A DNA stretch of 64,000 nucleotides from positions 62,386,001 through 62,450,000 of the forward strand of contig CM060989.1 of assembly GCA_030765065.1 (NCBI GenBank), in the 5' to 3' direction. This document shows, one piece after another, positions 629-63,619 of the stretch (the first letter of the stretch is position 1; each line of letters begins with the position of its first letter). The notes below the pieces were generated by a model. That model was not told where the DNA came from. It saw only the letters and a list, made by a program, of their open reading frames with translations, and made no database searches. A program made the translations under genes and the position numbers. The stretch comes from Deroplatys truncata. Taxonomy: Eukaryota; Arthropoda; Insecta; Mantodea; Mantidae.

Positions 629-1329
629 CTGATGTGTTACACTCACATAACTTTCTCTACTCTTGCACAAACATTTGCAGACTCTCTCTTATTGCTAATT
701 TTCTTGTAGATGTAAGGGGAATATATATTTACAAGGGCAAGGCTCTTATACAGTAGCCTTCAAGCACATACATATCTCTTAATAGCTGGTTGCTAGGTGC
801 AGCACCATTCCCTTTCCCACAGATTAATACTCTTTGCATATCCAAGACAAAAAAATGAACAAAGAATTCCCATTTGAGAAAATAAGCATTGAAAAATTTA
901 AGGGAATAACAAGCAATATCTCGAAAATGGTTCACTCAACAAAAAAAAATGTATATGACATAAATTGTGTATTTTAACGCGATCTACATTTTTTGTGTAG
1001 TAAAATTTTGCCTATCTCTTATGGTTTACCAGTTATGCAAAAGCCGTTCACAATGAAGAATACTTTTGGAGACATTCCCAGAAAATTCAAGATATACATT
1101 TCATTTGTCATGAAAATATCTTAAACATATGATTCTTTAATCAAAATCGTTAGAGCCAATTGAGAAAATTAAAATTTTTAAAAAATGTTCCTTGTAAAGG
1201 GTAATCTGGGGTGGGGGGATTTTGTTGAAAACTTCGTGTCGCATCTCTGGAAGATACTGAACCTAAATACCAAGTTTAGTGGTTATCCGACTATTCGTTT
1301 CTGAGCTATGCTGTTCACAGACGCGCGCG

Positions 1330-1388
<59 letters not shown>

Positions 1389-1523
1389 ACAGGTTTCTAA
1401 AAGTGCTTTTTTTGGATTCAGGGGGTCTCAAAACATATATTTCCGGTGAAATCTCGGTATCGAATTTTTTGGGTGGAATACAATACTTCCCCTACTTACT
1501 ATACGTAGTAGAGAAAGTAAAAA
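629..1523 (+). mobile_element. Family A Helentron-like element, complete
   Basis: The copy starts at TCTGATGTGTTAC after an A-run. It carries the 12-bp subterminal motif about 25 bases in, slightly mutated (aactttctctact), and ends with the 3' hairpin (ctacttactatacgtagtag) followed by agaaagtaaaaa. It belongs to a variant subfamily with a gcaccattccctttcccacag block, shared with the copies at 8592-8870 and 62728-63619. Its central microsatellite is greatly expanded. No coding capacity is present, which is typical of a non-autonomous element. The Helentron assignment rests on structure only. Confidence 0.85.
1321..1386. repeat. Compound microsatellite (CG)n(CA)n inside family A
   Basis: About nine CG units are followed by about 24 CA units, located exactly where other family A copies carry a short GT/CA tract. 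This makes it an expansion of the element's own seed repeat. Confidence 0.95.
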
Positions 1524-1548
1524 TAAATTAATAAATTAATTTAAAAAA

Positions 1549-2200
1549 TCTTATGTGTTATATTCACATGACTTATCTACCCTTCACGCTTATTGGTGGT
1601 TATATAAATTATTCTTACGAAAGCTTATTTTGGTATCTACTTCATTTTAATCGAGATAAACGTTTCAGGAAATAGTTGCATTATACATTTCATTATAGAT
1701 ACAAAGGGAATACAGGCAGCCAAATGTTTCAGAACTGGTCGCTATATCCTGGTCTTAAAATTCCATACGCTTTCTATGAAATCGCGAGAAGCAACTGAAA
1801 ATCGATAGGACTGATTAATGATAAGTATTGAACAATTCGAACCATTAATAACGGATATCTCGGAAATGGCTGATGCAAAAAAAAAAATTATTTGAAATAA
1901 ATTTGTGATTTATTTATTGTTTAGTACGTTTTCGCTATCGCTTATCGTCTACCAGTTATACAGGATTATATAAATTTCCTTCGGAATGAAGAGCATTTAA
2001 CAAGCTGTTCCCAGAAAATTCAAGATAAAGATTTTATTTGTAATGTAAATATCTTTAATATATGGCATTTTAATAAAAATACTTTTAAGCCACGTTTCAG
2101 AAAATAGAAAGGTTACAAAAATGTTTCATGGAAAGCGTAGTTTGGAATCGGGGGATTTCTTGAAAATTTTCATGTGGTATCTTTGGAAGGTGCTGAGCAC

Positions 2201-2242
<42 letters not shown>

Positions 2243-2260
2243 GCACACACTGCAATAGGT
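1549..2260 (+). mobile_element. Family B copy, 3'-truncated at a microsatellite
   Basis: It starts at TCTTATGTGTTATATTCACATG just downstream of a family A copy. It carries B-specific blocks: cttacgaaagcttatttt, the atcgcgagaagcaactgaaaatcgata block, and ggatatctcggaaatggctgatg. Homology ends in a (CT)n(CA)n tract at 2200-2250, and the expected conserved 3' block and hairpin are missing. Confidence 0.75.
2200..2250. repeat. (CT)n(CA)n microsatellite
   Basis: About 11 CT units run directly into about 10 CA units plus a short CA-rich tail. It lies at the position of the internal microsatellite of the family B copy. Confidence 0.95.
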
Positions 2261-3341: not shown

Positions 3342-3485
3342 TTACTTTCTATACTACGTATAGTAAGTAGGGGAAGTATTGTATTCCACCCAAAAATTCG
3401 ATGCCCAGATTTCACCGGAAATATATATTTTGAGACCCCCTGAATCCAAAAAAAGCATTTTTGGAAGCATGTCCGGCTGTGTGTT

Positions 3486-3523
<38 letters not shown>

Positions 3524-4127
3524 CAGCATAACTCAGAAACGAACAGTCAGATAAACACCAAAGTTGGTATTTAGGTTCAGTATCTTCCAGAGATGCGACA
3601 CGAAAGTTTGCAAGAAAATCCCCCACCCCAGATTACCCTTTACATGGAACATTTTTCGAAAATTTTAATTTTCTCAAAAATGGCTCTAATGGTTTTGATT
3701 AAAATATAACTGGTTTTGCATAACTGGTAAACCATAAGACATAGACAAAATTTTACTACACAAAAAATGTAGATCGCGTTAAAATACACAATTTGCGTCA
3801 TTACATTTTTTTTTTTGGGTGAACCATTTTCGAGATATTGCTTGTTATTCCCTTAGATTTTCCAATACTTAGACTTTTTCTCAAATTCGTTATTCATTTT
3901 TTTTGTCCTGGTAATGCAAAGAGAATGGAATACTCCACATAGCAACCAGCTCTTAAAATATTTAAGACTATAGCTTAAAGCCTAGCAATTCCCCTTGCAT
4001 CTACAAGAAAATAGCAATAAGATTAACATCTCAATATCTCGACTAACATGAAGCATATGCAGAATAAGCGTTTGTAAAAATAGTTTGTACAAGAGTAGAG
4101 AAAGTCATGTGAGTGTAACACATCAGA
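3342..4127 (-). mobile_element. Family A Helentron-like element, complete
   Basis: In minus orientation the 3' hairpin end lies at the left (ctatactacgtatagtaagtagg) and the 5' end (catgtgagtgtaacacatcaga) at the right. The internal GT microsatellite spans about 3480-3521. Its right end touches a family B fragment, so the copy probably landed in or next to that older element. Confidence 0.85.
3480..3521. repeat. (GT)n microsatellite inside family A
   Basis: A tract of about 20 GT units with two early interruptions follows the conserved catgtccg block of the element. Confidence 0.95.
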
Positions 4128-4130
4128 TAT

Positions 4131-4345
4131 TTTTAAAGTCCTGTAGATATCGATTGCATGGAAGCAGTATAGAATTTTATATCGTCCAGTTCTTAAACAT
4201 TTGACTATCGATGTTCGCTTTGTACCTATAAAGTTTATCTCAATTAAAATGATTAGATAGAAAAATAAGCTTTCGTAAGGATAGTTTATATACCCACTAA
4301 TTAAAGATAGAGGGTAGAGAGTTATATGTATGTAACGCAATAGAT
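4131..4345 (-). repeat. Family B 5' fragment
   Basis: B-specific blocks are visible: ttgcatggaagcagtatagaattt, the tcttaaacatttgactatcg block, and agatagaaaaataagctttcg. The end gagggtagagagttat corresponds to the subterminal motif. The 3' half is absent, either lost or removed by the adjacent family A insertion. Confidence 0.7.
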
Positions 4346-5180
4346 ATTGTTTCTGCTAAATAGACGTGGTTCTATTTGACTTCGTATATTTTCTTACCTG
4401 TGGTAAATGCTCTTCTTGTACAGGAAAGAAGTAGTTCTGTCAGAATTTTAAAAACTAAACCACTGAAGCACTTTGTCACTCAGATAATTTAGTTGTCGAC
4501 ATTACCACAATATAACTAATATGTTTACACACGTTGTTAAGGCCCGAAGTAATTTCACAGTGGAGGCCAACAAACCAAACAAAACACTACCACATACCGG
4601 TTAATCTAGCACCCGAACTAACTCTGAATGACTACAGACCACACTACCTCGACGTCTCGGCACAGGCTTCTCCGGGGGGTGGGGGGAAAGTCGAGAGGGG
4701 GCCATAGAGAATAAATAAAACCAGGGCTTCAAACACTCAAGCCAGAAAAATCCAACACTGGGGAAACGTGCGATGCTAGAAAGGTTTTTAAAAACCGAGA
4801 AATGTTTGTTATTTTAGCAGCATTTTCTTCGCTAATATTTTTAACTTTTTTTTTATCTGTCTGTTTAGTGGAAGTGGATTTCAGCTCCTCTAGCCCCTCC
4901 CCCAGCGTCTGTCCGCGCCGCCTCTCCATTATGTGTATGGTTTGTATTAAGTTAATTTGATGGCTCATATAGCGCACTCCTCTTCACGAATTTCACGGCA
5001 CATCCTTTGCTCGGCCAACACTTTTCTTAATCTAATGTTCCGACTGTCAACTTGGCTCAACCGGAACACAAATCCTGTCGCTTTGGAATCCACAACTGAT
5101 ACACCATCTGCTTATATGAACAAATGTCTCACGTTTAGCAGTTTAGAGTTTTCTGAGACATTAACGCTTTTGTTTTCTTT
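4346..5180. other. Unassigned region with a shared flank
   Basis: Bases 4352-4455 (taaatagacgtggttctatt, then tcttacctgtggtaaatg) resemble 7590-7690, which also follows a family B 5' end. The rest contains a G-rich stretch near 4674-4700 and no recognisable coding, RNA or repeat signal. Confidence 0.45.
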
Positions 5181-5906
5181 TTACTTTCTCTACTACGTAT
5201 AGTAAGTAGGGGAAGTATTGTATTCCACCCAAAAATTCGATACCGAGATTTCACCGGAAATATATGCTTTGAGGCCCCCTGAATCCAAAAACAAACCATT
5301 TTTGGAAACATGTCCGTGTGTGTGTGTGTGTGTGTGTGTCTGTGAACAGCATAACTCAGAAACGAACAGTCGGATAAACACCAAACTTGGTATTTAGCTT
5401 CAATATCTTCCAGAGATGCGACACGAAGGTTTTCAAGAAAATTCCCCCATCCCAGATTACCCTTTACATGGAACATTTTTCGAAAATTTTAATTTTCTCA
5501 ATAATGGCTCTAACGATTTTGATTAAAATATCATATCTTTAAGATATTTTTATGATAAATGAAATGTATATCTCGAATTTTCTGGGAATGTCTCCAAAAG
5601 TATTCTTCATTGTGAACGACTGTTGCATAACTGGTAAACCATAAGATATAGACAACATTTTACTACACAAAACATGTAGATCGCGTTAAAATACACAATT
5701 TATGTCATACATTTTTTTTTTGTTGAGTGACAACCAGCTCTTAAAATATTTGACTATCGCTTAAAACCTACCAATTCCCCTTGCATCTAGAAGAAAATTG
5801 GCAATAAGATTAACATCTCGATTAACATGAAGCATATGGAGAATAAGCGTTTGTAAAAATAGTTTGTACAAGAGTAGAGAAAGTCATGTGAGTGTAACAC
5901 ATCAGA
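5181..5906 (-). mobile_element. Family A Helentron-like element, internally shortened
   Basis: Both termini are present: ttactttctctactacgtat at the left and gtgtaacacatcaga at the right. The middle lacks roughly 100 bases between the ttgttgagtga and caaccagctctt blocks, explaining the shorter length. It contains a short GT tract near 5317-5340. Confidence 0.85.
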
Positions 5907-6195
5907 TTTTTAGAATAAGGTCCATCAGTTTGTATGTACCTTCAAAAGATGCGACATAAAGATTTTCAAAAAAATCCCCTAACCACAAATTTCCCTCTAA
6001 ATGGAGCATTTTTCGAAACGATTTTTATTAAAATGCCATATATTTAAGAGGTTTACAAGAGAAATAAAATTTACACCTTGAATTTTCTGGGAAAACGGAG
6101 CAATTTACGAGATATCCGTTGTTAATTGTTTGAATTTTCCAATACTTTGTCATTCATTTGAAATCTCCACAAAAACGGAGATTCATATTTTGACG

Positions 6196-6424
6196 CGTTT
6201 TTTAAGGTCCATTTATACCCCGCCTTTAACTGCGTTGGTCTTATCGGCGGCCTAAAGCAATGGTGTTAACTCGTATTCGTTGGGTTTTTACCATTAGATT
6301 CCACACACACATTCATACTTCTAGGCTTTGTGGAGGATAGGGATTATTCCCAAGCCGGGAATAGAACCCGTGACCCCTCACACAGTAGGCAGGTGCTCTA
6401 CCGAGTGAGCTACACAGCCAGCCT
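6196..6424 (-). mobile_element. tRNA-derived SINE (family 3)
   Basis: On the minus strand the head is tRNA-like. Box A is tgtagctcactcggtagagc, box B is gggttctattccc, and an anticodon-arm-like cctgcctactgtgtg lies between them. The body contains taggccgccgataagacc and ends inside the family B copy. A related head is at 19262-19345. Pol III box A/B organisation is standard for SINEs. An intact tRNA gene is unlikely because the 3' acceptor strand does not pair and sequence continues into a body. Confidence 0.75.
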
Positions 6425-6736
6425 TTGGGGCTTTTGAATAGCTCAGTGCCGTCTTCAGTTTCAACCATGAGACATGACATGGGCAAAAAGGAATAAAACG
6501 CCATCAACAAACGAAATGAATGTTCTGTACGAGGACCCAATCCCAATCCCTCGTATGAAATTCTCGCAATTGTATGGAAACAGTATGGAATTTTAAGGCC
6601 AGCTCATAGCATCCAGTTATTAAACATTTGACTGTCGCTGTTCCCTTTGTGTGTATAACGAAATATGTAATGTAGCTATTTCTGTAAAGACTTATCTCAA
6701 TTACAGTGAAAGAAATGGAAAATTAAGTGTTCGTAA

Positions 6737-7486
6737 ATAAATAAATAAATCGGTATCTTTATTGGTTTCAAATTATTGAAGTTATTACACAAGTATTTAG
6801 TGCATGGATCATTTACCGTACATGCATATTTAAGATACAAGGTATGGTGACAAAATAAACAACAGAAAAAGAAACCAAACAAAAAAGAACAAGAAAAAAT
6901 AAAATAGAGATAAATTACCTTTAAGCAACTGAACAAATTTGACATAGCTTCGCGCACTTTAGCCAAGAAATTGCCCATGTTATGCCGTTCCTCTGGTCAG
7001 CCAGTAGATCCCAACATGCCCATCTCTTTCTTAACGGACTTAAGAATTTTTCTTCGGGTTTAATTATTCGCCGGTTCTATCACTGAGCGCATTCCGCCAA
7101 AATATGTACCCAGTCCTCATCCAAATCAGAATGGGCAAATTCTCCTGCCAGAATCGTCAGTCATTTTCTGTGCCCGTCTAAACCATGCCATTCCTGATCT
7201 TTCCTTTCTTCCAAAGTTTAGTATATATGCCTCTTTACCCCAATTCAATTTTATTTCATTTGCTAGACTTAGAGAAGATTTAGTTTCACAATCCGATTCT
7301 ATTTCATGTTGGTTGATGTCTCTTAGTCTTCTTTTGACACCGTTCCATATGATTTTGTCATTTGTTTCAGCTCTTTGCCATACTGACCCCATTCCTATTC
7401 TCCTCAAATCCCTTTCCAAATCAGCTGCCCAAAACTTAGGAGACAGATTTTCTCGTTGGTATTTATAACACTTGGATCGTAGTAGC
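6737..7486 (-). mobile_element. Non-LTR retrotransposon 3' end with target duplication
   Basis: A 5'-truncated LINE lies on the minus strand. Its left end is a (ATTT)n-type 3' tail (taaataaataaataaat on the plus strand). The octamer gttcgtaa occurs at 6729-6736 and again at 7487-7494, flanking the insert as a target-site duplication. Joining the flanks restores the normal family B sequence there. The coding tail is described separately. The 3' UTR is about 250 bases. Confidence 0.8.
6960..7430 (-). pseudogene. LINE ORF2 C-terminal tail
   Basis: The frame opening near 7430 encodes a basic tail with ERDLRRIGMGSVWQRAE, a KKRLRDI-like segment, LNWGKEAYILNFGRKERSG and MAWFRRAQ, followed by a CPF...H...C region with DEDWVHILAECAQ. 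This is the pattern of the region downstream of reverse transcriptase in insect non-LTR elements, including the final Cys/His motif. Stop codons interrupt the Cys/His region, and the RT and endonuclease domains are missing through 5' truncation. The tail resembles that at 45185-46080 in style (GLAWFR/GMAWFR-type and CPxC motifs). The clade is not determined. Confidence 0.7.
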
Positions 7487-7566
7487 GTTCGTAAGAATAG
7501 TTTGAATGCCCATTAATAATAGATAGAGGGTAGAGAAAGTCATGAAAATGTAAGTCATCAGATTTT

Positions 7567-7718
7567 ACTCCCTTAATTTTGCATAGCTGCATAAATAGAC
7601 ATGGTTATATTTACTTTCGTATATATTCTTACCTGTGGTTAATGTTCTCTTGTAGACGAAAGAACAAGCTCTGTGAGACCTTTTCAATGTTTACTTTCTC
7701 AAAAATGCCTCTAAGTAT
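7567..7718. repeat. Flanking repeat shared with 4352-4455
   Basis: Bases 7590-7690 (taaatagacatggttatatt, ttcttacctgtggttaatg) are similar to the sequence that follows the family B end at 4345. This suggests either a longer ancient repeat or a duplicated insertion site. Confidence 0.5.
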
Positions 7719-8591
7719 TTTTAATTTCTCTACTACGTATAGTAAGTAGGGGAAGTATTGCATTCCACCCAAAAATTCGATACGGAGATTTCGCCGGAAA
7801 TACATGTTTTGAGACCTCCTGAATCCAAAAAAAGCATTTTTGGAAACATGTCCGTGTGTGTGTCTGTGTGTGTGTGTGTGTGTCTGTGTGTCTGTGTGTG
7901 TGTCTGTGAACAGCATAGCTCAAAAACTAACAGTCGGATAAACACCAAACTTGGTATTTACGTTCAGCATCTTCCAGAGATGCGACACGAAGATTTTCAA
8001 GAAAATACCCCCAACCCAGACTACCCTTACATGGAACATTTTTCGAAAATTTTAATTTTCTCAAAAATGGCTCTAACGATTTTGATGAAAATATCATATG
8101 TTTAAGATAATGTCATGAGAAATGAAATGTATATCTCGAAATTTCTGGGAATGTCTCCAAAAGTATTCTTCATTATGAACGACTTTTGCATAACTGATAA
8201 GAGATAGACAAAATTTTACTACACAAAAAATGTAGATCGCGTTAAAATACACAATTTATATCATATAGATTTTTTTTGTTGAGTGAACCGTTTTCGAGAT
8301 ATTGCTTGTTATTTCCTTAAATTTTCCAATACTTATACTTTTTGTCAAATTCGTTATTCATTTTTTTATGTCCTGGACATGCAAAGAGAATGGAATGCGC
8401 CGCATAGCAACCAGTGATAATATATTTGACTATCGCTTAAAAGCTACCATATTCCCCTTGCATCTACAAGAAAATTACAAATAAGATTGACATCTCGATA
8501 TCTCGATTAATATGAAGCATATGGAGAATAGGCGTTTGTAAAAATAGAGTGTACAAGAGTAGAGAAAGTCATGTGAGTGTAACACATCAGA
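7719..8591 (-). mobile_element. Family A Helentron-like element, complete
   Basis: The left end is tttctctactacgtatagtaag and the right end gtgagtgtaacacatcaga. The GT microsatellite at about 7853-7908 is interrupted by CT steps. It is very similar to the copy at 58516-59410, including the gcatagcaaccag and cttaaaagctaccatatt blocks, so these two are probably recent sisters. Confidence 0.87.
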
Positions 8592-8870
8592 TTTTTTTGT
8601 CTTGGATATGCAAAGAGTATTAATCTGTGGCAAAGGGAATGGTGCTGCACCTACCAACCAGCTATTAAAAGATATGTATGTGCTTAAAGGCTACTGTATT
8701 TCTATATTGCCCTTGTAAATATATATTCCCCTTACATCTACAAGAAACTTAGCAATAAGATAGAGTCTGCAAATGTTTATCTCGATTAACATGAAGCATA
8801 TGGAGAATAAGCGTTTGTAAAAATAGATTGTACAAGAGTAGAGAAAGTCATGTGAGTGTAACACATCAGA
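8592..8870 (-). repeat. Family A 5' half (variant subfamily)
   Basis: It begins in the tgtcttggatatgcaaagag block and runs to gtgtaacacatcaga. The ggtgctgcacctaccaacc block marks the same variant as 629-1523. It directly abuts the previous copy at a T-run, consistent with one copy having inserted into the other and the 3' half being lost. Confidence 0.75.
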
Positions 8871-9604: not shown

Positions 9605-9605
9605 A

Positions 9606-9664
<59 letters not shown>
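9605..9664. repeat. (AAT)n microsatellite
   Basis: About 20 uninterrupted AAT units, the longest trinucleotide tract of the window. Confidence 0.95.
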
Positions 9665-9665
<1 letters not shown>

Positions 9666-10870: not shown

Positions 10871-10948
10871 GGGGGTTGCGGCTGAATCATGGCTATGCGT
10901 GGAAGTTTCTTCCTGACGTCATCCAGGGACCGCTCGGCTGGATAGCCG

Positions 10949-11820: not shown

Positions 11821-12662
11821 TCTGATGTGTTACACTCTCATGACTTCCTCTACTCTTGTACAAACTATTTTTACAAACGCTTCTTCTCCATCTACTTCAT
11901 GTTAATCGAGATAAACATTTGCAGAAACCATCTTGTTGCTAATTTCTTGTAGGTGCAAGGGGAATTGGTAGGCTTTAAGCGATAGCCAATCTTTTAAGAG
12001 CTGGTTGTTATGTGGATCATTTCATTTTCTTTGCATATCCAGAACATAAAAAAAACCGAATAACAAATTCACGTTTGAGAAAAACTATTGGAAAATTGAA
12101 AGAAATAACAAGGAATATCTCGGAAATGGTTCACTTGACAAAAAAAAATGTATATGACATAAATTGTGTGCTTTAACGAGATATACATTTTTTATGTACA
12201 CAATGGTTATCTTATCTCTTACGGTTTACTAGTTATGCAAAAGCCATTCACAATGAAGAGAACTTTTGGGGTCATTACCAGAAAATTCAATATATAAGTT
12301 CACTTGTAAAGAAAATATCTTAAACATATGACATTTAATCAAAATCGTTAGAGCCATTTTTCAGAAAATCAACATTTTCGAAACATTTTCCATGTAAAGG
12401 GTAATCTGGGGTCGGGGGATTTTCTTGAAAATCTTTGTGTCGCATCTTTGAAACATATTGAACCTAAATACCAAGTTTGGTATTTATCCGACATTTGTTT
12501 TTGAGTTATGCTGTTCATAGATACACACGCGGACCTTTTTCTAAAAAATGCTTTTTTGGATTCAGGGGGCCTCAAAACATGTATTTCTGCTGATATCTCG
12601 GTATCGAATTTTTGGGTGGAATGCAATACTTCCCCCACTTACTATACGTAGTACAGAAAGTA
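11821..12662 (+). mobile_element. Family A Helentron-like element, complete
   Basis: It starts tctgatgtgttacactctcatgac after an A-run and ends with a mutated hairpin cacttactatacgtagtacagaaag. The microsatellite is minimal (about three CA units), so this is an unexpanded copy. Confidence 0.85.
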
Positions 12663-13785: not shown

Positions 13786-15337
13786 AAAAATCTAATGTGA
13801 CACACTCAAATGACTTTTATTACTTTCTCCACTACATATAGTAAGTAGGGAAAGTATTGTATTCCACCCAAAATTCGATACCAAGATTTCACCGGAAATA
13901 CATGTTTTGAGACCCCCTGAATAAATGAAAAGCAGTTTTGGAAACATGTCCGTGTGTGTCTTTTAACAGTATAACTCAGAAACGAACAGTCGGATAAACA
14001 CCAAACATGGTATTTAGGTTCAGTATCTTCCAGAGATGCAACACGAAGGTTTTCAAGAAAATCCCCCACCCCAGATTACCCTTTAGATGGAACATTTTTC
14101 GAAAATTTTAATTTTCTAGGAATGACTCTAACGATTTTGATTAAAATATCATATGTTTAAGATATTTTCATGACAAATGAAATGTATATCTTGAATTTTC
14201 TGGGAATGCCTGCAAAATATTCTTCATGGTGCATTTATTTGCATAACTGATAGACAAAATGTTACTACACAAAAAATGTAGATCGCGTTAAAACACACAA
14301 TTTATGTCTTATACATTTTTTTTTATTGAGTGAACCATTTTCGAGATATTGCTTGTTATTCCCTTAAATTTTCCAATACTTCAAATGCGAATTCGTTATT
14401 CATATTTTTTATGTCCTGGACATGCAAAGAGAATTGAATTCGCCACATAGCAACCAGCTCTTAAAAGATTTGACTATTGCTTAAATCCTACCATATTCCC
14501 CTTACACCTACAAGAAAATTAGCAATAAGATTAACATCTCGATTAACATGAAGCATATGGAGAATAAACGTTTGTAAAAATAGTTTGTATAAGAGTAGAG
14601 AAAGTCATGTGAATGTAACACATCAGATTCTTTTCTATCTACTACATTTCAATCCAAATAAATCTCTGCAGAAATATCTATATTACACATTTCGTTATAG
14701 ATGCAAAGGAAACAACGATAGTCAAATATTTTAAGGAACTGGACGCTATACGCTGGCCTTATAATTCCATACTGTTTCCATGCAATCGCGAGAAACAACT
14801 GAAAATTGACGAGACTTAAAAAGAGTAAGTAATGAACAATTCGAGACTTTAATAACGAATATCTCGTAAATGGCTTATGCCACAAAAAAAACTTGTTGGG
14901 AATAACTGTGTGTTTTAAAGGGATCTACAATTTTTGTGTAGTACATTTTCGTCTATCGCTTACGTTTACCAGTTATACAAGATTATACAAAATTCCTTCC
15001 AAATATAGAGCACTTCCTAGGATATTCCCAGAAAATTCAAGATATACACTTAATTTGTCATGTAAATACCTTTAATATATATCGTATTTTAATAAAAATC
15101 GTAAAAGCCAATTTTAGAAAATTAACATTTTCGAAAAATGTTACATACAAAGTGTAGTCTGGTGTGGGGAGGTTTTCTTCAAAATCTTCGTGTCGCATCT
15201 TTGGAAGTTACTGAACCTAAATACCAAATTTGGTATTTAAATTTTTTTTTATTCAGGGTCTCAATACATGCATTTCCGGTGAAATCCTTGAATCAATTTT
15301 TTGGGTGGAATGCAATACCTCCTGGTACAGAAAGTAA
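13786..15337 (+). mobile_element. Family B copy interrupted by family A
   Basis: The 5' end (tctaatgtgacacactcaaatg) is at 13786. The sequence resumes after the inserted family A copy at 14628 (tctatctactacatttcaatcc) and runs through ccatactgtttccatgcaatcg and the conserved gtgaaatccttgaatc block to a 3' end gtacagaaagtaaaaa. It is one of the most complete B copies and shows that B shares the family A terminus (agaaagtaaaaa). Confidence 0.75.
13819..14627 (-). mobile_element. Family A Helentron-like element inside family B
   Basis: The left end is tactttctccactacatatag and the right end gtgaatgtaacacatcaga. It abuts the B 5' end at that element's own actttt motif, so the junction looks like a subterminal motif joined to a subterminal motif. 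The GT tract is short (about 13948-13958). Confidence 0.85.
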
Positions 15338-19517: not shown

Positions 19518-20342
19518 TCTGATGTGTTACACTCACCTGACTTTCTCTACTCTTGTACAAACTATTTTTACAAACGCTTATTCTCCTTATGCTTCATGTT
19601 AATCGAGATGTTAATCTTATTGCTAATTTTCTTGTAGTTGCAAGGGGAATTGGTAGACTTTAAGCGATAGTCAAATATTTTAAGAGCTGGTTGCTATGTG
19701 GAGTATTCCATTCTCTTTGCATTACCAGGATAAGAAAAAAGAATAACGAGTTCCCATTTGAGAAAAAGTATAAGTATTGCAAAACTTAAGGGAATAACAA
19801 GCAATATCTCGAAAATGGTTCACTCAACAAAAAAATATATGACATAAATTGTGTATTTTAATGCGATCTACATTTTTGTGTAGTAAAATTTTGCCTATTT
19901 CCTATGGTTTACCAGTTATGCAAAAGTTGTTCACAATGAAGAATACTTTTGGAGACATTACCATAAAATTCGAGATATACATTTTGTTTGTCATGAAAGT
20001 ATCGTAAGTATATGATACTTTAATCAAAATCGTTAGAGCCACTTACATTTTCGAAAAAGTTCCATGTAAAGCGTAATCTGGGGAAGGGGGATTTTCTTAA
20101 AAACCTTCGTGTCGCATCTCTGGAAGATACTGAACCTAAATACCAAGTTTGGTGTTAATCCAACTGTTGGTTTCTGAGTTATGCTGTTCACAGACAGACA
20201 CACACACGGACATGTTTCCAAAAATACCTTTTTTGGATTCAGGGGGTCTCAAAACATGTATTTCCGGTGAAATCTCGGTATCGAATTTTTGGGTGGAATA
20301 CAACACTTCCCCTACTTACTATACGTAGTAGAGAAAGTAAAA
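19518..20342 (+). mobile_element. Family A Helentron-like element, complete
   Basis: It starts tctgatgtgttacactcacc and ends tactatacgtagtagagaaag. It has a short CA tract near 20198-20206. It begins inside the cataactcaaaaa segment of the opposite-strand fragment to the left, with no duplicated target visible. Confidence 0.87.
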
Positions 20343-26596: not shown

Positions 26597-27427
26597 TTTT
26601 ATTACATTCTCTACCACATATAGTAAGTAGGGGAAGTATTGTATTCCACTCAAAAATTCGATACCGAGATTTCACCGGAAATATATGTTTTCAGACCTCC
26701 TAAATCCAAAAAAAGCATTTTTGGAAACATGTCCGTGTGTGTGTCTGTCTGTGTGTATGTCTATGAACAGCATAACTCAGAAACGAACAGTCGGATAAAC
26801 ACCAAAATTGGTATTTAGGTTCAGTATCTTCCGACACGAAAGTTTATAAGAAAATCCCCCACCCCAGATTGCCCTTTACATGGAACATTTTTCGAAACTT
26901 TTAATTTTCTCAAAAATGGCTTTAACGATTTTGATAAAAATATCATATGTTTAAGATATTTTCATGACAAATGAAATGTATATTTCGAATTTTCAGGGAA
27001 TTCTTCATTGTGAACGACGTTTGCATAACTGGTAAACCATAAGAGATAGACAAAGGTTTACTAAACAAAAAATGTAAATCGCGTTAAAATACGCAATTTA
27101 TGTCATATACATTTCTTTTGTTGAGTGAACCATTTTCGAGGTATTCCTTGTTATTCCCTAAAATTTTCCAATACTTACACCTTTTCTCAAATTCGTTATT
27201 TATGTTTTCTTTTTCCTGGTAATACAAAGAGAATGGAATGCGCCACGTACTAACCAGCTCTTAAAAGATTTGACTATCGCTTAAAACCTACCATATTCCC
27301 CTTGCACCTACAAGAAAATTAGCAGTAAGATTAACATCTCGATTAACATGAAGTATATGGAGAATAAGCAATTGTAAAAATAGTTTGTACAAGAGTAGAG
27401 AAATTCATGTGAGTGTAACACATCAGA
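26597..27427 (-). mobile_element. Family A Helentron-like element, complete
   Basis: The left end is ttacattctctaccacatatag and the right end gtgagtgtaacacatcaga. A GT tract at about 26733-26762 is interrupted. The two central deletions (cttccgacacgaaag and ttttcagggaattcttc) are private to this copy. Confidence 0.85.
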
Positions 27428-27457: not shown

Positions 27458-28150
27458 TCTGATGGGTTATACTCACATGACTTTCTCTACACTTGTACAA
27501 ACTATTTTTGCAAACGCTTATTCTCCATCTACTTCATGTTAAGCGAGACAGGGAGAAGATAATCTTATTGCTAATTTTCTTGTAGATGCAAGGGAAATTG
27601 CTAGGCTTTAAGCGATAGTCAAATATTTTAAGAGGTGGTTGCTATATGGAGCATTCCATTATCTTTGTATGTCCAGGACATAAAAAAGCGAATAATAAAT
27701 TTCCATTTGAGAAAACGTATGTGTTGCAAAATTCAAACAAATAACAAGGAATACCTCGGAAATGGTTCACTCGACAAAAATTTCAAGATATACATTTTAT
27801 TTTTCATGAAAATATGTTAAATATATACTATTTTAATCAAAATCGTTAAAGCTATTTTTGAGAAAATCAAAATTTTCGAAAAATGTTCCATGTAAAAGGT
27901 AGTCTGTGGTGGTGGATATTCTTGAAAATGTTCGTGTCGCATCTTTGAAAGATACTGAACCTAAGTACCAACTTTGGTATTTATGCGACTTTTCGTTATG
28001 CTGTTCTCAGACACCCAGACCTTTTTAAAAAATCATTTTTTTTGCATTCAGGAGGCCTCAAAACATGTATTTCCGGTGAAATCTCGGTATCTAATTTTTG
28101 GGTGGAATGCAATACTTCCCCTACTTACTATACGTAGTAGAGATAGTAAG
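27458..28150 (+). mobile_element. Family A Helentron-like element, shortened
   Basis: It starts tctgatgggttatactcacatg and ends tactatacgtagtagagatag. It lacks about 100 bases (from gttcactcgacaaaaa directly to tttcaagatatacat) and has almost no microsatellite (cacccagacc). Confidence 0.83.
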
Positions 28151-28471: not shown

Positions 28472-29279
28472 TTTTTACTTTCTCGACTACGTATAGTAAG
28501 TAGGGGAAGTATTGTATTCCACCCAAAAATTCGATACCGAGATTTCGCCGGAAATACATGTTTTGAGACCCCAAAAAAGCATTTTTGGAAACATGTCCGT
28601 GTGTGTGTCTGTCTGTGAACAGTCGGATAAACACCAAACTTGGTATTTAGGTTCAGTATCTTCCAAGGATGCGACACGAAAGTTTTCAAGAAAATCCCCC
28701 ATTAACCCTTTACATGGAACATTTTTCGAAAATTTTAATTGTCTCAAAAATGTCTTTAGCGTTTATGATTAAAATATCAAATGTTTAACATATTTTCATG
28801 ACAAATGAAATGTATATCTCGAATTTTCTGGGAATGTCTCCAAAACTTCATTGTGAACGACTTTTGCATAACTAGTAAACCATAAGAGATAGACAAACTT
28901 TTACTGCGCAAAAACTGTAGATCGCGTTGAAATAAACAATTTATGTCATATGCATTTTTTTGTTGAGTGAACCATTTTCGAGATATTGCTTGTTTTTCCC
29001 TTAAATTTTCCAATACTTACACTTTTTCTCAAATGGGAATTCGTTATTCATTTTTCTGTCCTGGGAATGCAAAGAGAATGGAATACTCCACATAGCAACC
29101 AGTTCTTAAAATATTTGACTATCGCTTAAAGCCTACCAATTCCCCTTGCATCTACAAGAAAATTAGCAATAAGATTAACATCTCGATATCTCGATTAACA
29201 TGAAGCATATGGAGAATAAACGTTTGTAAATATAATGTGTACAAGAGTAGAGAAAGTCATATGAGTGTAACACATCAGA
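28472..29279 (-). mobile_element. Family A Helentron-like element, complete
   Basis: The left end is tttttactttctcgactacg and the right end atgagtgtaacacatcaga. Small deletions remove cctgaatcc and the agcataactcagaaacga segment next to the GT tract (about 28601-28618). Confidence 0.86.
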
Positions 29280-37289: not shown

Positions 37290-38817
37290 ATGGACAAAGA
37301 TACAAAGAGAACAGCGATAGTCAAATGTTTCAGAACTGAGCGCTATATGCTGGAGTTAAAATTCTATACTGTTTCCATGCAATCGCGAGAGACAGTTTAA
37401 AATCGACAGGACTTTGAAAGAATGCCTAAGTATTGAACAAATACGAACTATTAATAACGAATATCTCCGAAATGGCTGATGCCACAAAAAAATTCTGATG
37501 TGTTAAACTCACATGACTTTCTCTACTCTCGTACAAACTATTTTTACAAACGCTTATTCTCCATATGCTTCATGTTAACCGAGATGTCAATCTTATTGCT
37601 AACTTTCTTGTAGATGCAAGGGGAATTGGTAGGCTTTAAGCGATAGTCAAATATTTTAAGAGCTGGTTGCTATGTGGAGTATTCCATTCTCGTTGTATGT
37701 CCAGGACAAAAAAAATGAATAACAAATTTGAGAAAAAGTATAAGTATTGGAAAATTTAATGGAATAACAAGCAATATCTCGAAAATGGTTCACTCAACAA
37801 AAACAATATATATGACATAAATTGTGTATTTTAACGCGATCTGCATTTTGTGTGTAGTAAAATTTAGTCTATCTCTTATGGTTTACCAGTTAGACAAAGG
37901 TCGTTCACAATGAAGAATACTTTTGGAGACATTCCCAGAAAATTCGAGATATACATTTCATTTGGCATGAAAATGCCTTAAACATATGATATTTTAATCA
38001 AAATCGTTAGAGCCACTTTTGAGAAAATTAAAATTTTCGAAAGATGTTCTATGTAAAAGGTAATATGGGGTGGGGGGATTTTCTTGAAAACCTTTGTGTC
38101 GCATCTCTGGAAGATACTGAACCTAAATACCAAGTTTGGTGTTTATCCGACTGCTCGTTTCTGAGTTATGCTGTTCACAGACACACGGACATGTTTCCCA
38201 AAATGCTTTGTTTTTGGATTCAGAGGGTCTCAAAACATGTATTTCCGGTGAAATCTCGGTATCGAACTTTTGGGTGGAATACAATACTTCCCCTACTTAC
38301 TATACGTAGTAGAGAAAGTAAAAATTTATTGGAAATGAATTGTGTGTTTTAAACAGCTTCACATCTTTGTGCAGTACGTTTTCGTCTATTGCTTAACGTT
38401 TACCAGTTATACAAGATTACATAAAAATTGCTTTCGAATTAAGCCATTCCCAGAAAATTCAATATATGCATTTTATTTGTCATGCAAATATCTTTAACGT
38501 GTGATATTTTATTCAAACATTTTCGAAAAATATACCTTGTAAAGGGTAGTTTGAGTGGGGGATTTTCTTGAAAATATTCTGTGTCGCATCGTTAGAAGGT
38601 ATTGAACTTAAATACCAAGTTTGGTATTTATCCAATATTTCGTTTTTGAGTTATACTGTTCACAGATACACACACCTACATTTTTCTAAAAATGTTTTAT
38701 TAAAGAGCGCCTCAAAACACGTGTTTCCGGTGAAATCTGGTATCGAATTTTTGGGTGGAGTGCAATACCTCTACCTTTTAGGTACGTGGAAGAGAAAGCA
38801 AAAACACCTGGCTTGTG
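37290..38817 (+). mobile_element. Family B copy interrupted by family A
   Basis: The left piece 37290-37493 has gatacaaagagaacagcgat, ctgtttccatgcaatcgcg and atctccgaaatggctgatg. The right piece 38325-38817 has ttattggaaatgaattgtg, the tggtatcgaatttttgggtgg block and a 3' end acgtggaagagaaagcaaaaa. The 5' end is missing. The junction with the inserted family A copy shows no duplication. Confidence 0.75.
37494..38324 (+). mobile_element. Family A Helentron-like element inside family B
   Basis: It starts tctgatgtgttaaactcacatg and ends ctatacgtagtagagaaag plus an A-run. The microsatellite is nearly absent (cagacacacggac), giving a length close to the unexpanded consensus. Confidence 0.9.
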
Positions 38818-46080: not shown

Positions 46081-46082
46081 TA

Positions 46083-47784: not shown

Positions 47785-48393
47785 ATTACTTTCTCTACTA
47801 CGTATAGTAAGTAGGGTAAGTATTGTATTCCACCCAAAAATTCGATACCGAGTTTTCACCGGAAATATATGTTTTGAGACCCCCTGAATCCAAAAAAAGG
47901 CATTTTTGGAAACATGTCCGTGTGTGTGTCTGTGAACAGCATAACTCAGAAACGAACAGTCGGATAAACACCAAACTTGGTATTTAGGTTCAGTATCCTT
48001 CAGAGATGCGAAAAGAAGGTTTTCAAGAAAATCCCCCACCCCAGATTACCCTTTACATGGAACATTTTTCGAAAATTTTAATTTTCTCAAAACTGGCTAT
48101 AACGATTTTAATTAAAGTCTCATATGTTTAAGATATTTTTAGGACAAATGAAATTTATATCTTGAATTTTCTGGGAATGTCTCCAAAAGTATTCTTCATT
48201 GTGAACGACTTTTGCATAACTGGTAAACCATAAGAGATAGAAAAAGTTTCCAACACAAAAAATGTAGATCGCGTTAAAATACACAATTTATGTCATATAC
48301 ATTTTTTTTGTACAGTGAACCGTTTTCGAGATGTTACTTGTTATTCCCTAAAATTTTCCCATACTTATACTTTTTCTTAAATTCGTTATTCAT
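47785..48393 (-). mobile_element. Family A Helentron-like element, 5'-truncated
   Basis: The left end is attactttctctactacgtat. Sequence is normal to ttcgttattcattttt, where another family A copy begins. The expected 5' third never reappears. Confidence 0.83.
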
Positions 48394-49197
48394 TTTTACT
48401 TTCTATACTACGTATATTACGTAGGGGAAGTATTGTATTCCACCCAAAAATTCGATACCGAGATTTCACCGGAAATATAAGTTTTGAGACCCCCTGAATC
48501 CAAAAAAGATATTTGGAAACATGTCCGTGTATGTGTCTTTGAACAGCATAACTCAGAAACGAACAGTCGGATAAACACCAAACTTGGTATTTAGGTGCAG
48601 TATCTTCCAGAGATGCGACACGAAGGTTTTCAAGAAAATCAAAACTTTAATTTTCTCAAAAATGGCTCTAACGATTTTGATTAAAATATCATATGTTTAA
48701 GATATTTCTATCACAAATGAAATGTATATCTCGAATTTTCTGGGAATGTCACCAAAAGTATTCTTCACTGTGAGTGACGTTTGCATAACTGGTAAACCAT
48801 AAGAGATAGACAAAATTTTACTACACAAAAAATTTAGATCGCGTTAAAATCCACACTTTTTGTCATATACGTTTTTTTTTGGGTGAACCATTTTTGAGAT
48901 ATTGCTTGTTATTCCCTTAAATTTTCCAATACTTATACTTTTCCTCAAATGGGAATTCGTTATTCATTTTTTTTATGTCCTGGACATGCAAAAGAATGGA
49001 ATATTGCACATAGCAACCGCCTCTTAAAAGATTTGACTATCGCTTAAAGGCTACCAATTCCCCATACACCTACAAGAAAATTAGCAATAAGATTAACATC
49101 TCGATATCTCGATTAACATGAGGCATATGGAGAATAAGCGTTTGTAAAAATAGTTTGTAGAAGAGTAGAGAAAGTCATGTGAGTGTAACACATCAGA
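48394..49197 (-). mobile_element. Family A Helentron-like element, complete
   Basis: The left end is actttctatactacgtatat and the right end gtgagtgtaacacatcaga. It sits in the T-run of the preceding copy in the same orientation. A deletion joins caagaaaatc to aaaactttaattttc, dropping the cccccaccccag block. Confidence 0.86.
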
Positions 49198-56345: not shown

Positions 56346-57350
56346 TCATTGCTGCAAGAAGTTCGCGACTCTCTCCGGGTTACTCTTCAGTCTGGGACCA
56401 AGAGATGAGACCCGGATGGCTTCGGTGATGGCTGTGAGTCTGGATGAACTGCTGTCGAACTGCCCAGCCAGGAAAACCTGTTGAGCAGCTGATGTGGTTT
56501 GAAGATCCCTGATGAGTTCCTCCAGGGCTGACAGCTTCGTCGTCATGTTCAGGAACTCTGCGTGGAGATCCTGAACGGCGTCACGTAGGCCCTGGACTTC
56601 CTCGATGATCGGCGCTGGTGATGGTGTCGGTGGCTGTGGAGCCGTCACTGGTTGCGGCGAAGGTGCTGGTGGCTTCAGCGGTGCCTTCCTGCGAGGATGC
56701 AGGGGGCAGAGCGCTTGACCGGTGAAATGCGTTGACCCTCCACAAGTCGCACAGTAGCGGCGTCGACGGCGCAGGTCGTGCTGGGTACACGAAGAGGTGG
56801 TGCAGGCGGAACCACAATAGTGGAACCTAGGTTGTGCTGTGCATGTCGACTCCTCGTGCCCGTAAGCACAGCAGCGCCTGCAGGGTGTCTGGCGTTCTAA
56901 TCGGCTAACCGCGATTCGTAAGCACCGCCCTAACAAGGGCAGACCCGTCCTCAAGGCAGCTTCATAGTCGCCAGGGTCTGCGTACTCGATCCTGACGAGC
57001 GACGTGGGTCCCTGTGCTCCGAAGATCCGAGTGGCCTTCAAGGCTGAAGGCCACTGCTGGTGAGCTGACGAGGAACCTGACTCTACCTGACAGCGCTCTA
57101 CCTCCCATGAGGCACAGGTTGGGAAGCTCCCAGGATCGGCGGTGTGGAACCCAGTGATGTTGGCGGCGGCTACAGCGGCAGTCGCGGCGAGGCTGCGCTG
57201 GATGGCGGCTGCGGTCGGGGCATAGGTTGTCCCGGGCTGCGGCGAGTGCCGGAGGAGAAGAAGAGGGTCCGGCCTTCGCAGGCTCGGCGACTCTACGTTG
57301 CTTCTTCTTCGTGGCACCCTCTGGTTTATTGAGCTTGAACTACTTAACCC
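56346..57350 (-). pseudogene. Gag-like ORF1 of a non-LTR retrotransposon, without ATG
   Basis: An uninterrupted frame follows a stop at 57351-57353 and ends at 56346. Its first GTG is at 57317 (323 codons) and there is no ATG until very late, so the N-terminus is missing or translation would need a non-AUG start. The N-terminal third is Ala/Pro/Arg-rich. A middle region, TSLVRIEYADPGDYEAALRT, resembles the RNA-binding part of ORF1 proteins, and RIAVSRLERQTP leads into three Cys/His knuckles: CRRCCAYGHEESTC, HYCGSACTTSSC and YCATCGGSTHFTGQALC. A Pro-rich linker and a helical C-terminus (VQDLHAEFLNMTTKLSALEE) follow. The length and knuckle order fit gag-like ORF1 of jockey/R1-like elements. No ORF2 follows. 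Confidence 0.75.
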
Positions 57351-58192: not shown

Positions 58193-59851
58193 GGCTGGTT
58201 CACAACCACCCGGTAACGGTAACCAGAACGGAAACGAGAACGGGAAGCAATCAATTTTGATTCACAACAGCCCGGTAACGAGAACGGGAATGCATATCGA
58301 TCACAAAGTGAAAGTCAATTTTGCGCATTGGGATTTCATTTGTTTTTAACTGACCAATGATATTTTTTCACCTACTTCCAAATTAGCCAAGCCAACGTCA
58401 AAATTCGATAGAGTAAACATTATCTAAATGCATATTCATTACATTTCCGATCCCTCTACTTATGCCAAACTTTCATTGCTTTATTTAATGGCATACATCA
58501 AAATTGTTTATTGTTCTTTTTACTTTCTCTACTACGTATAGTAAGTAGGGGAAGTATTGCATTCCACCCAAAAATTCGATACCGAGATTTCACCGGAAAT
58601 ACATGTTTTGAGACCTCCTGAATCCAAAAAAAGCATTTTTGGAAACATGTCCGTGTGTGTGTCTGTGTGTGTGTGTCTGTGTGTGTGTGTGTGTCTGTGT
58701 GTGTGTCTGTGTGTCTGTGAACAGCATAACTCAAAAACGAACAGTCGGATAAGCACCAAACTTGGTATTTACGTTCAGTATCTTCCAGAGATGCGACACG
58801 AAGGTTTTCAAGAAAATCCTTCCACCCCAGACTACCCTTTACATGGAACATTTTTCGAAACTTTTAATTTTCTCAAAAATGGCTCTAACGATTTTGATGA
58901 AAATACCATATGTTTAAGATAATATCATGAGAAATGAAATGTATATCTCGAATTTTCTGGGAATGTCTCCAAAAGTATTCTTCATTCTGAACGACTTTTG
59001 CGTAACTGGTAAACCTTAAGAGATAGACAAAATTTTACTACACAAAAAATGTAGATCGCGTTAAAATACACAACTTATGTCATATACATTTCTTTTGTTG
59101 AGTGAACCGTTTTCGAGATATTGCTTGTTATTTCCTTAAATTTTCCAATACTTATACTTTTTCTCAAATTCGTTATTCATTTTTTTATGTCCTGGACATG
59201 CAAAGAGAATGGAATGCGCCGCATAGCAACCAGCGTTAAAATATTTGACCATCGCTTAAAAGCTACCATATTCCCCTTGCATCTACAAGAAAATTACCAA
59301 TAAGGTTGACATCTCGATATCTCGATTAACATGAAGCATATGGAAAATAGGCGTTTGTAAAAATAGATTGTACAAGAGTAGAGAAAGTCATGTGAGTGTA
59401 ACACATCAGATTTTTTCATTTCCACCGGTTTTAACTGTTCTTTGTAGCTTTTGCCATTGTGTTTTTAGGTAATAGCCAGTTTTGAGTTGCATATAAACAA
59501 ACTACAAATGATTCTTTCACCAAAGGAATCAACGTTGATTAGATTTGCTGGTTTCGGGATGAGGTTAGGAAGCACATTTATTACTAATTCCTTAAAGTTT
59601 CATGTCACCAGCTTGCGACTATGGAGAGCACCAGTGGCTGTTTCATGTCACGCCCGCTTGGAATAACCTATAGAGTGAAGAGTTTAATATGCACAATAGG
59701 GATCTAATATACCGTGCCCGGGAACGAGAACGGGAAAGTTAAAAGTTGGGCAACTCTTCTTTCCCGTTCCCGGGGCCCGGGAAGCTTCCCATCGGTTGTG
59801 AACTTTCTTGTTCTTGTTCTGGTTACCGTTCTCCTTGGTTGTGAACCAGCC
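58193..59851. mobile_element. MITE-like element interrupted by family A
   Basis: The terminal inverted repeat ggctggttcacaacca lies at 58193, with its inverse tggttgtgaaccagcc ending at 59851. Subterminal zones carry repeated agaacgggaa/cccgttcc words on both sides. Flanks are ttaa (left) and ttta (right). Excluding the family A insert it is about 760 bp with no coding capacity. The superfamily is unknown. Confidence 0.75.
58516..59410 (-). mobile_element. Family A Helentron-like element, complete
   Basis: The left end is tttttactttctctactacg and the right end gtgagtgtaacacatcaga. It carries an expanded GT tract with CT interruptions (about 58653-58720). It is a close sister of 7719-8591, including the shared gcatagcaaccag variant. 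Confidence 0.9.
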
Positions 59852-61095: not shown

Positions 61096-61364
61096 TTCTT
61101 TTTTAAACTCTCCATCCTCATTATTTATGATTATTTGTACAAAATAGTCCTAAAAGTGGCAAGCGGGGGAGTGCCTCATAGCAAGAGAGGTCAGGACCCT
61201 ACATCATTTCTTTATTAAATCATCTTCTCTCTCCACTGGACTTAAGTCTTTGAAACCATCCAACACCTCCTGCTCGCCTTGAGTGTGACTTAACTCGAAC
61301 TCCTAACGAACTGTTATCCTTAACAACTCAGTCTTAAAACTATCAATCCAGGAGGCTTATTGCA

Positions 61365-61868
61365 CTATCTGATTTATGTTAATCCAACTAAACATTTACA
61401 GAAATGGTTTTGTTACTCACTTTCTTGTAGATACAAGGGCTTAGAGAAATAAAGTGATAGTCAAGTTTTTAAGAACGGGTCACTATGGGATGGATTTGAA
61501 GTTCCGTTCTCTTTGCATGACCACGAGAAAAACACATAATGAATAGTCACCAGTTCAGAAAAGTATGGCGTATCAATTCAAACCAATAATAAAGAATATC
61601 TCGGAAATGATTAATGCCTCACAAATTATAAACTGTGTTTTAACGAGATCATTTTTCCTAAGTTTCTGTCACTTACGGTTTACAAGTTATACAAAGTTTA
61701 TTCACAGGCTATTGCAGAAAATTAAAGAAATGTATTTTATTTGTCATGCAAATATCCTAAGTATACGGTATTTTAATCAAAATCATTAGAGCCATTAGAA
61801 AAACATTTTTTCCATATAAAGGGTAGTCTTCGCACCCTTGGAAACCTCTGAATTTAATTTCATAAGAA
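61365..61868 (+). repeat. Diverged Helentron-like copy (A/B intermediate)
   Basis: It includes tatctgatttatgttaatcc, gtcaagtttttaagaacggg, aagaatatctcggaaatgat and tttgtcatgcaaatatcc. It stops at ggtagtcttcgcacccttgg, just before a LINE tail begins. Confidence 0.6.
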
Positions 61869-61892
61869 GAGCTTACACTGTTAAATTATTTT

Positions 61893-62565
61893 CTTAGATA
61901 GCCAGGCTGCAGTTAAGGCTATAACTAGTCATAAGGTAACGCCAGGACTGGTTTTAAAACTGCTAAACATGCTCACAAGCTTGGCAGAACAGAATGAAGT
62001 TAAACTCATCTGGGTGCCGGGTCATAGTGGCATAGAGGAAAAAGAAAAAGCTGATGATCTTGCAAGACAAGGAGCACCTTTACAATTTATTGGGCCGAAG
62101 CCTGCTCTAGAAACATCTCGATGTTTAGTAAGAGAGGCTATTAAGAACTGGTCCAAAGTAGAACATCATAAAACCTGACTTAAAACTCCAGGAAACAAAC
62201 ACGGTAAACTATTTATTAGAAAACCATGTAAGAAAAGAGCTACTTAAATGTAGCAGACTTCAGCTGAGAACAATTATTGCATTTCTCACAGGACATGCTC
62301 CTTTGAAAAAGCATCTTAAGACGATGGGAGTGTTTCAGGGTAACTTAGATTGCAGATTGTGCAAGTAAGAACCTGAAACAGCCCAGCACATTACGTGAGG
62401 CCTTGGCTAACAGGAGGTATATTGCTCAATGTTTTTAGAACCAGAAGAATTTGAAACTAAATCTTTTACGAGACTGCATTCCTTGGTAAAGAGTGCAGGT
62501 GTCGTGAAATGGTTTTAAAACAATACAGGGAGTACAATAAAGCCAAGGCTGAAATGAGTCCGGAG
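61893..62565 (+). pseudogene. RNase H domain and C-terminus of a non-LTR retrotransposon
   Basis: The frame reads FLDSQAAVKAI (catalytic D..SQAA block), then LTSLAEQNEVKLIWVPGHSG and IEEKEKADDLARQGA, containing the H..G and N/K-ADxLAR blocks of LINE-encoded RNase H. In the next frames are FIGPKPALETSRC, AIKNWSKVEHHKT and ending KKHLKTMGVFQGNLDCRLC, EPETAQHI and FTRLHSLVKSAG, which is the typical C-terminus of jockey-like insect ORF2. The usual ENEKADELAR reads KEKADDLAR. Stops after 62178 and a 5' truncation show it is dead. Confidence 0.85.
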
Positions 62566-62649
62566 AAATGATGGAAATCTGTATTGGGCAAGACAAATGA
62601 ATACCAGATTTTCGGTTTTTAATTATGCTTTTCATAGGCAGGCATATAT

Positions 62650-62727
62650 GAAATTGTTCTAAATTTTTAGGGGTGGAGAATTCAGGGAGTCTCAAAACAT
62701 GTATTTGTGGTGAAATATCGATATTAA
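62650..62727 (+). repeat. Family A/B 3' block fragment
   Basis: The segment attcagggagtctcaaaaca to gtggtgaaatatcgatatt is the conserved block upstream of the hairpin. The hairpin is missing, replaced by the opposite-strand copy that begins here. Confidence 0.65.
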
Positions 62728-63619
62728 TTACTTTCTCTACTACGTATAGTAAGTAGAGGAAGTATTGTATTCCACCCAAAAATTCGATACCGAGATTTAA
62801 CCGGAAATACGTGTTTTGAGACCCCCTGAATCCAAAAAAAGCAGTTTTGGAAACATGTCCATGTGTGTGTCTGTCTGTGAACAGCATAACTCAGAAACGA
62901 ACAGTCGGATAAACACCAAACTTGGTATTTAGGTTCAGTATCTTCCAGAGATGCGACACGAAGGTTTTCAAGAAAATCCCCCCACCCCAGATTACCCTTT
63001 ACATAGAACATTTTTCGAAAATTTTAATTTTCTCAAAAATGGCTTTAACGATTTTGATTAAAATATCGTATGTTTAAGATATTTTCATGACAAATAAAAT
63101 GTATATCTTGAATTTTCTGGGAATGTCTCCAAAAGTATTCTTCATTGTGAACGACTTTTGCATAACTGGTAAACCATAAGAGATAGACACCATTTTACTA
63201 CACAAAAAATGTAGATCGCGTTAAAATACATAATTTATGTCATATACATTTTTGTTGTTGAGTGAACCATTTTCGAGATATTACTTGTTTTTCCCTTAAA
63301 CTTTTCAATACTTATTTTCTCAAATGGGAATTCGTTATTCATTTTTTGTCTTGGATATGCAAAGAGTATTAATCTGTGGGAAAGGGAATGGTGCTGCACC
63401 TAGCAACCAGCTATTAAAAGATATATATGTGCTTAAAGGCTACTGTATTTTCAAATTGCCATTGTAAATATATATTCCCCTTACATCTACAAGAAAATTA
63501 GCAATAAGATAGAGTCTGCAAATGTTTATCTCGATTAACATGAAGTAGATGGAGAATGAGAGTTTGTATAAATAGTTTGTACAAGAGTAGAGAAAGTCAT
63601 GTGCGTGTAACACATCAGA
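62728..63619 (-). mobile_element. Family A Helentron-like element, complete (variant)
   Basis: The left end is attactttctctactacgtat and the right end gtgcgtgtaacacatcaga. It carries the ggaatggtgctgcacctagc variant block also seen at 629-1523 and 8592-8870. The GT tract is short (62861-62880). Confidence 0.88.

Follow-up and report, generated by a model that had tools for sequence, protein, structure and literature searches.

The closest described counterparts of the family reported here are DINE-1/INE-1 and the HINE families with Helentron partners. According to the available sections of PMC4067079, these carry subterminal inverted repeats (subTIRs), an inverted repeat of which one arm lies in the 5' subTIR, a 3' palindrome and a microsatellite, they occupy T-rich targets with variable terminal Ts and no other target change, and they are deletion derivatives of a Rep/helicase/endonuclease element whose Rep motif contains an S. 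Cg_HINE of the Pacific oyster, as described in the accessible part of PMC7492417, likewise has a left 11-12-bp subTIR with a complementary inverted repeat, a microsatellite, a right subTIR with a palindrome, and TT targets without target duplication. Two further systems resemble the present one in single respects: the Helitron2-type FoHeli elements of Fusarium insert into themselves and occur in forms that combine several 5' ends with just one 3' end (PMC5148889, in part), and Helentrons with VTD deubiquitinase domains, insect elements included, combine a Herpes_teg_N-like domain with a C-terminal AP endonuclease (PMC9741609, in part). Large grasshopper genomes are Helitron-rich (PMC7486953, PMC7754599), and the words Helentron and DINE are absent from the available portions of both texts. 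Here we describe a repeat family in a 64,000-nucleotide stretch of the mantis Deroplatys truncata (GenBank assembly GCA_030765065.1, contig CM060989.1, positions 62,386,001 to 62,450,000; hereafter the window). Judged by its sequence, this family is very probably a HINE, that is, an element without coding capacity that arose by internal deletion from a Helentron which encodes an endonuclease and is present in this genome too. It is no new class of element, but a known kind with a sequence of its own.

A first, sequence-only reading of the window had proposed a repeated family on both strands, and the counts of its ends bear this out. The end sequence TCTGATGTGTTAC has 23 matches with at most two mismatches, compared to 1.83 expected (none of 100 shuffles reached this number), and ACTTTCTCTACT has 46 matches with at most one mismatch, compared to 0.39 expected. 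A 12-mer lies 22 nt inside 22 ends of the TCTGATG type, so that the motif of the sequence-only reading stands while its distance of about 25 bases is corrected; the inverse of the 12-mer, which had been placed at the other end, is present as AGTAGAGAAAGT. The opposite end type was found 17 times when up to five mismatches were allowed. Fifteen end pairs were obtained, two of which have a common 3' end, leaving 14 distinct copies with both ends. Their majority consensus is 840 bp long, and single copies are 88.4-96.9% identical to it (Kimura two-parameter distance 0.032-0.127). Consensus matches at E 1e-4 or better, older relatives counted, cover 31.6% of the window, and pieces of at least 80% identity cover 24.9%. 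The family extends from 628, one base before the start that had been given, to 63619, as given. At the gathering threshold no Rfam family was found in the window, and there was no tRNA.

Apart from the distance of the 3' subTIR from its end, the substructures of the element are those listed for HINEs in PMC7492417 and PMC4067079; its polarity, however, had been given the wrong way round. On the strand of the coding partner described below, the TCTGATG end, which had been taken for the 5' end, is the 3' end, given the usual plus orientation of Helentron genes, to which the available part of PMC4067079 names one exception. The positions of the subTIRs and the side that carries the Ts and the microsatellite agree with this revised polarity, which is used from here on. 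The 5' subTIR ACTTTCTCTACT joins the inverted repeat AGTAGGGGAAGT when the first 40 nt are folded (14 pairs, -4.9 kcal/mol), and the GT microsatellite, correctly recognized from the start, comes after this fold. At the other end, the 3' subTIR AGTAGAGAAAGT lies 22 nt from the 3' end, and 4 nt short of that end there is a stem of five pairs, ATGTG/CACAT (-2.3 kcal/mol). The imperfect hairpin of the earlier description thus exists, but not as placed: the main hairpin is the pair of 5' subTIR and inverted repeat, and the 3' stem is the small one.

A Rep/helicase element with the same ends had been suggested as the decisive partner to look for, and such elements were found. A genome search with Helitron_like_N returned at least 152 matches, with 150 of 291 candidates scored, and 18 of the matches listed lie in open frames of 2,108-2,543 aa. 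Twelve of these long-frame elements were checked for ends (three fetched with flanks and nine more of the 18, picked by their long frame and not at random), and both family ends were present in all 12. On the coding strand, the first three copies consist of a T-run, ACTTTCTCTACTACGTATAGTAAGTAG, the frame, a variant of the 3' subTIR, GTAACACATCAGA and another T-run; the only copy among them in which neither end is duplicated spans 3683-13377 of the joined loci L044 and L041, or about 9.7 kb.

The 2,182-aa protein of one partner copy, P0001, matches Herpes_teg_N (E 1.1e-8), DUF6570 (6.1e-16), Helitron_like_N (9.5e-28) and PIF1 (1.8e-29), and so unites an HUH Rep and a PIF1 helicase in one protein; its frame also contains a 63-bp tandem repeat, seen as register-shifted matches and a repeated charged peptide. 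A stop precedes the end of the endonuclease domain in the P0001 copy, while the L040 copy is open through the domain. The C-terminal part of the latter matches Exo_endo_phos_2 (PF14529; E 2.4e-6; 27.8 bits, the cut-off being 27.4) and includes the stretches GDFN and SDHKPI; PF03372 gave E 0.0013 on this region, under its cut-off, and PDB sequences gave nothing better than E 0.13. Among partner frames of at least 120 aa there was no reading frame for RPA. Tegument-like deubiquitinase domains in Helentrons have already been described in the accessible part of PMC9741609, where activity was measured on zebrafish domains, whereas the present domain is known from sequence alone. This domain in the partner protein, the absence of an RPA frame among those read and the family's own sequence distinguish the present system from the families in the available part of PMC4067079. 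With the six peptide patterns used, no relatives of P0001 were found in viral_contigs. Among phages, 415 records match P0001; the matches of the five listed lie around the helicase and span 20% of the query.

The Rep motif of the partner is of the Helentron type. Section 7 of PMC4067079, as far as available, separates Helentrons from Helitrons by an S or L in this motif, and VEFQMRGSPHEH, with S between G and P, was present at 10 of 10 loci (L029-L038). The second Rep signature in that source (F/Y, w/l/y/k, R) is partly matched, by YQR. In this motif and in its endonuclease match, the partner differs from canonical Helitrons (Helitron1), which have a GLPH-type motif and no endonuclease. Such canonical-type Helitrons exist elsewhere in this genome: GLPHAH was found in all seven readable motifs out of the 20 loci L009-L028 (L009, L012, L015, L016, L017, L019 and L024), most of them with broken frames.

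Comparison of the two kinds of element points to the origin of the short one. Consensus positions 1-699 of the HINE align with the first 714-767 bp of the three partner copies at 86.1-91.5% identity, and its last 33 bp are 93.9% identical to the last 33 bp of all three. With both ends matching and the coding middle absent, the HINE appears to be an internally deleted derivative of the partner, and the long protein-coding elements with the same ends are most likely what moves it. A partner sharing the ends was not achieved for Cg_HINE in the available part of the oyster paper, and the present consensus is without the satellite-like central repeats of that family.

The family is abundant throughout the 4.29-Gb genome (818 contigs), as the sequence-only reading had anticipated in calling it very successful. 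We counted 146,448 exact matches to the 3'-end pattern (73,588 and 72,860 on the two strands) and 116,408 to the exact 38-nt 5' end (58,185 and 58,223), while the same patterns read backward gave none. The window contains 11 exact 3' ends, compared to a genome mean of 2.2 per 64 kb, and four exact 5' ends, compared to 1.7; because it is thus two- to five-fold enriched, its 31.6% coverage must not be applied to the genome. Dividing that figure by five gives a genome share of about 6%, a guess by extrapolation. Outside this genome, a 34-nt end pattern had no match in viral_contigs. A literature search by general words, without the species name, found no description of the family, which Repbase or Dfam may name. 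A separate observation concerns contig C1, where units of about 3,409 bp are repeated in tandem over about 19-124 kb (L001-L008, L062). Each unit read holds one HINE copy, about 91.6-91.7% identical to the consensus, and 27 exact 3' ends are among the matches listed, from 20,511 to 119,394. The start of C1 opens with Ns, and no TTAGG run was found there.

Insertion into T-runs, also part of the original description, was evident in all 14 window copies. Each has at least two Ts on its 5' side (five in eight copies, two in five and seven in one), and the 3' flank has five to seven Ts in 10 copies and TATTTTT, TTCTTTT or, twice, ATTTTTT in the others. We used the joined flanks of copy 28477-29279 as an empty-site query, for which 40 of 1,036 candidates were scored, giving 40 rows. 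Two of these are the query's own halves, and the other 38 (71-81% identity) cross the junction. Ten aligned paralogous empty sites have 4, 4, 5, 5, 5, 6, 6, 6 and 7 Ts, with one lacking a run, while the filled site has 5 + 6; the gain is four to seven Ts, with no doubling of the bases beyond the run. The insertion of copy 37494-38319 into an older relative presents the same picture with longer T-runs. At a T-run within the family itself, among the matches listed, the intact run is mostly T7-T8, the left part after insertion mostly T5 (about 85 of 100 rows) and the right part mostly T7-T8, a gain of about five Ts; at L071/L072, a consensus T7 has become 6 + 6. Exact matches genome-wide give 100,260 5' ends preceded by exactly five Ts, 7,069 by four and 23,479 by six.

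These counts are fitted best by a model in which the host run stays intact on the 3' side while the element itself brings two or five Ts; element-borne Ts varying in number from two to five are described in the available part of PMC4067079. Where the host run is long, a T5 duplication may also be involved. The view that the family inserts without target duplication therefore needs qualification: only Ts were gained at the ten aligned empty sites, and no consistent non-T duplication appeared at the sites examined, but ATTTTT is repeated on both sides in 2 of 14 copies, which leaves room for a duplication of Ts alone or of ATTTTT.

The T-run inside the family is itself a landing site. In two of the first three partner loci, L039/L042 and L043/L040, the outer ends are HINE parts broken at about consensus 614-619, where this internal T-run lies. 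Among six loci read (L081-L086), three 5' ends precede three 3' ends in L085, a head-to-tail junction is present in L081, and a pair of 5' ends goes with a lone 3' end in L086. With exact patterns, the internal T-run was found intact at 47,691 sites and broken at 8,118 left and 12,732 right junctions, with no matches to the backward controls, and a second T-run of the same element gave 809 left junctions, again with none for its backward control. The junction patterns are unequal in length and copied junctions inflate the counts, so these numbers allow only a rough comparison, and the tenfold excess of the first T-run over the second does not have to reflect a target preference.

Composite forms occur among the coding partners too. 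An extra 5' end lies 626-662 bp upstream of the frame-adjacent one in six of the nine further partner loci and in L043/L040. Within the 701 bp fetched, five of those six loci have one 3' end, and the sixth, L065, has two and is nested in a HINE; one further locus, L069/L070, has two 5' ends in ambiguous order. Across the seven composites, the stretch that separates the two 5' ends has 97.7-99.8% identity, while their outer flanks, in forced alignment, are 44-61% identical, apart from two pairs (97.5% and 84.8%) that are flanked by family sequence. The simplest reading of these sequences is that a nested composite has transposed repeatedly in one piece, which reaches from the outer 5' end to its only 3' end. 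The accessible part of PMC5148889 proposes such use of the outer 5' end through to the first 3' end for the Fusarium elements, in which, however, there is no endonuclease and duplicated 5' pieces are typically <200 bp, as opposed to 626-662 bp at one T-run here. By analogy with the wider family, the partner's Rep would nick at the 5' end, the helicase would unwind the strand, the 3' end would halt the process and the product would be joined into a T-run. Re-insertion into one of the family's own T-runs yields nested copies, as well as composites that pair the outer 5' end with the first 3' end. More tentatively, the internal T-run could be a preferred landing site, with self-targeting driving the family's success, repeated nesting there creating composite autonomous elements with two 5' ends and one 3' end, and one such lineage having become a main mobile coding form in this genome; we regard this combination as possible but doubtful.

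The class that the sequence-only reading had named, a HINE or non-autonomous Helentron, is supported by the subTIR anatomy, the T-rich target and the Rep/helicase/endonuclease partner sharing both ends. Several observations weigh against it: both stems are weak and were folded without a shuffle control, nothing in the inner part of the three partner copies matches a stretch of about 100 bp (712-807) in the HINE, the ATTTTT repeats flank two copies, and the 3' subTIR is 22 nt from the end, compared to 38-60 bp for mite HINEs in the available part of PMC4067079. The ATTTTT repeats, the predominance of five Ts before the 5' end and the mariner-type transposase remains within the window would suit a miniature inverted-repeat transposable element, or another element moved by a DDE transposase, with a short T-rich target duplication such as T5. 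This is very improbable, as the inverted repeats are terminal at one end and 22 nt inside the other, in five of 14 copies the Ts on the 5' side number no more than two and the five-base flanks of the two sides are unlike each other, and the elements with both ends encode a Rep, a helicase and an endonuclease. No DDE element or long interspersed nuclear element with the same ends turned up, although no search beyond the Rep/helicase find was aimed at one. Only slightly less remote is a Helitron2-type element without a working endonuclease, which would move by the same mechanism but not be a strict Helentron. The endonuclease match is barely above the Pfam cut-off and a stop precedes the domain's end in one of the three copies read, but the L040 copy is open through the domain, with both GDFN and SDHKPI, and the Rep motif has the Helentron-type S.

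The tandem ends raise a separate question. We had considered them a replication product, a reading that was dropped for self-insertion because the inner element proved to be enclosed by both halves of the outer copy. If, instead of self-insertion and composite movement, units had been duplicated in place or by replication slippage, this would account for the 5' units and the 3' units that occur in tandem, and C1 does have a 3.4-kb tandem array with a family copy; the junction counts, moreover, take in copies of copies. Breaks at the same T-run with both outer halves present, the three 5' then three 3' ends of L085 and the near-identical segments of seven composites in different flanks, except for the two pairs inside family copies, make this origin unlikely. 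The family, an extremely abundant HINE linked to its probable mover in a 4.3-Gb genome with self-nesting countable in thousands, is a natural source of evidence on the choice of ends by rolling-circle elements (the first 3' end being used with the outer 5' end) and on the way a single family piles onto itself in a giant genome.

Positions of family members in the window, oriented 5' to 3' as in the coding partner; percentages are identity to the consensus.
Feature	Position	Strand	Identity or remark
HINE copy, both ends	628..1518	-	93.5%
HINE copy, both ends	3344..4127	+	95.9%
HINE copy, both ends	5183..5906	+	96.9%
HINE copy, both ends	7723..8591	+	95.2%
Extra 3' end directly after copy 7723-8591, 3' part of another copy	8592..8870	+	end at 8870
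HINE copy, both ends	11821..12661	-	88.4%
HINE copy, both ends	13822..14627	+	94.8%
HINE copy, both ends	19518..20338	-	95.2%
HINE copy, both ends	26604..27427	+	94.0%
HINE copy, both ends	27458..28147	-	89.0%
HINE copy, both ends; empty site studied	28477..29279	+	95.7%
HINE copy, both ends, within older related element	37494..38319	-	96.2%
Extra 5' unit (own 5' end 47788) directly before copy 48398-49197; junction CATTTTT/ACTTTC = internal T-run site	47788..48397	+	
HINE copy, both ends	48398..49197	+	95.0%
HINE copy, both ends	58522..59410	+	96.0%
HINE copy, both ends	62730..63619	+	94.1%

The copies ending at 27427 and 27458 point 3' end to 3' end, 30 bp apart. Four diverged 3' ends (216, 7562, 18012 and 21540), in which additional bases follow the 12-mer, look as if they belong to a related subfamily of greater age. 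Other elements were also seen in the window. A mariner-type transposase remnant lies at 50580-51125 on the plus strand (Transposase_1, PF01359, E 1.3e-23), and another at 39797-40315 on the minus strand, where only a helix-turn-helix model matched, below its cut-off. A 334-aa open frame at 56346-57350 on the minus strand looks like a retroelement gag with CCHC-like stretches and had no Pfam match at E 0.001. Finally, about 1 kb at 45000-46100 is strongly asymmetric between strands (GC skew to -0.65), and its minus strand resembles, by eye, a decayed reverse transcriptase.

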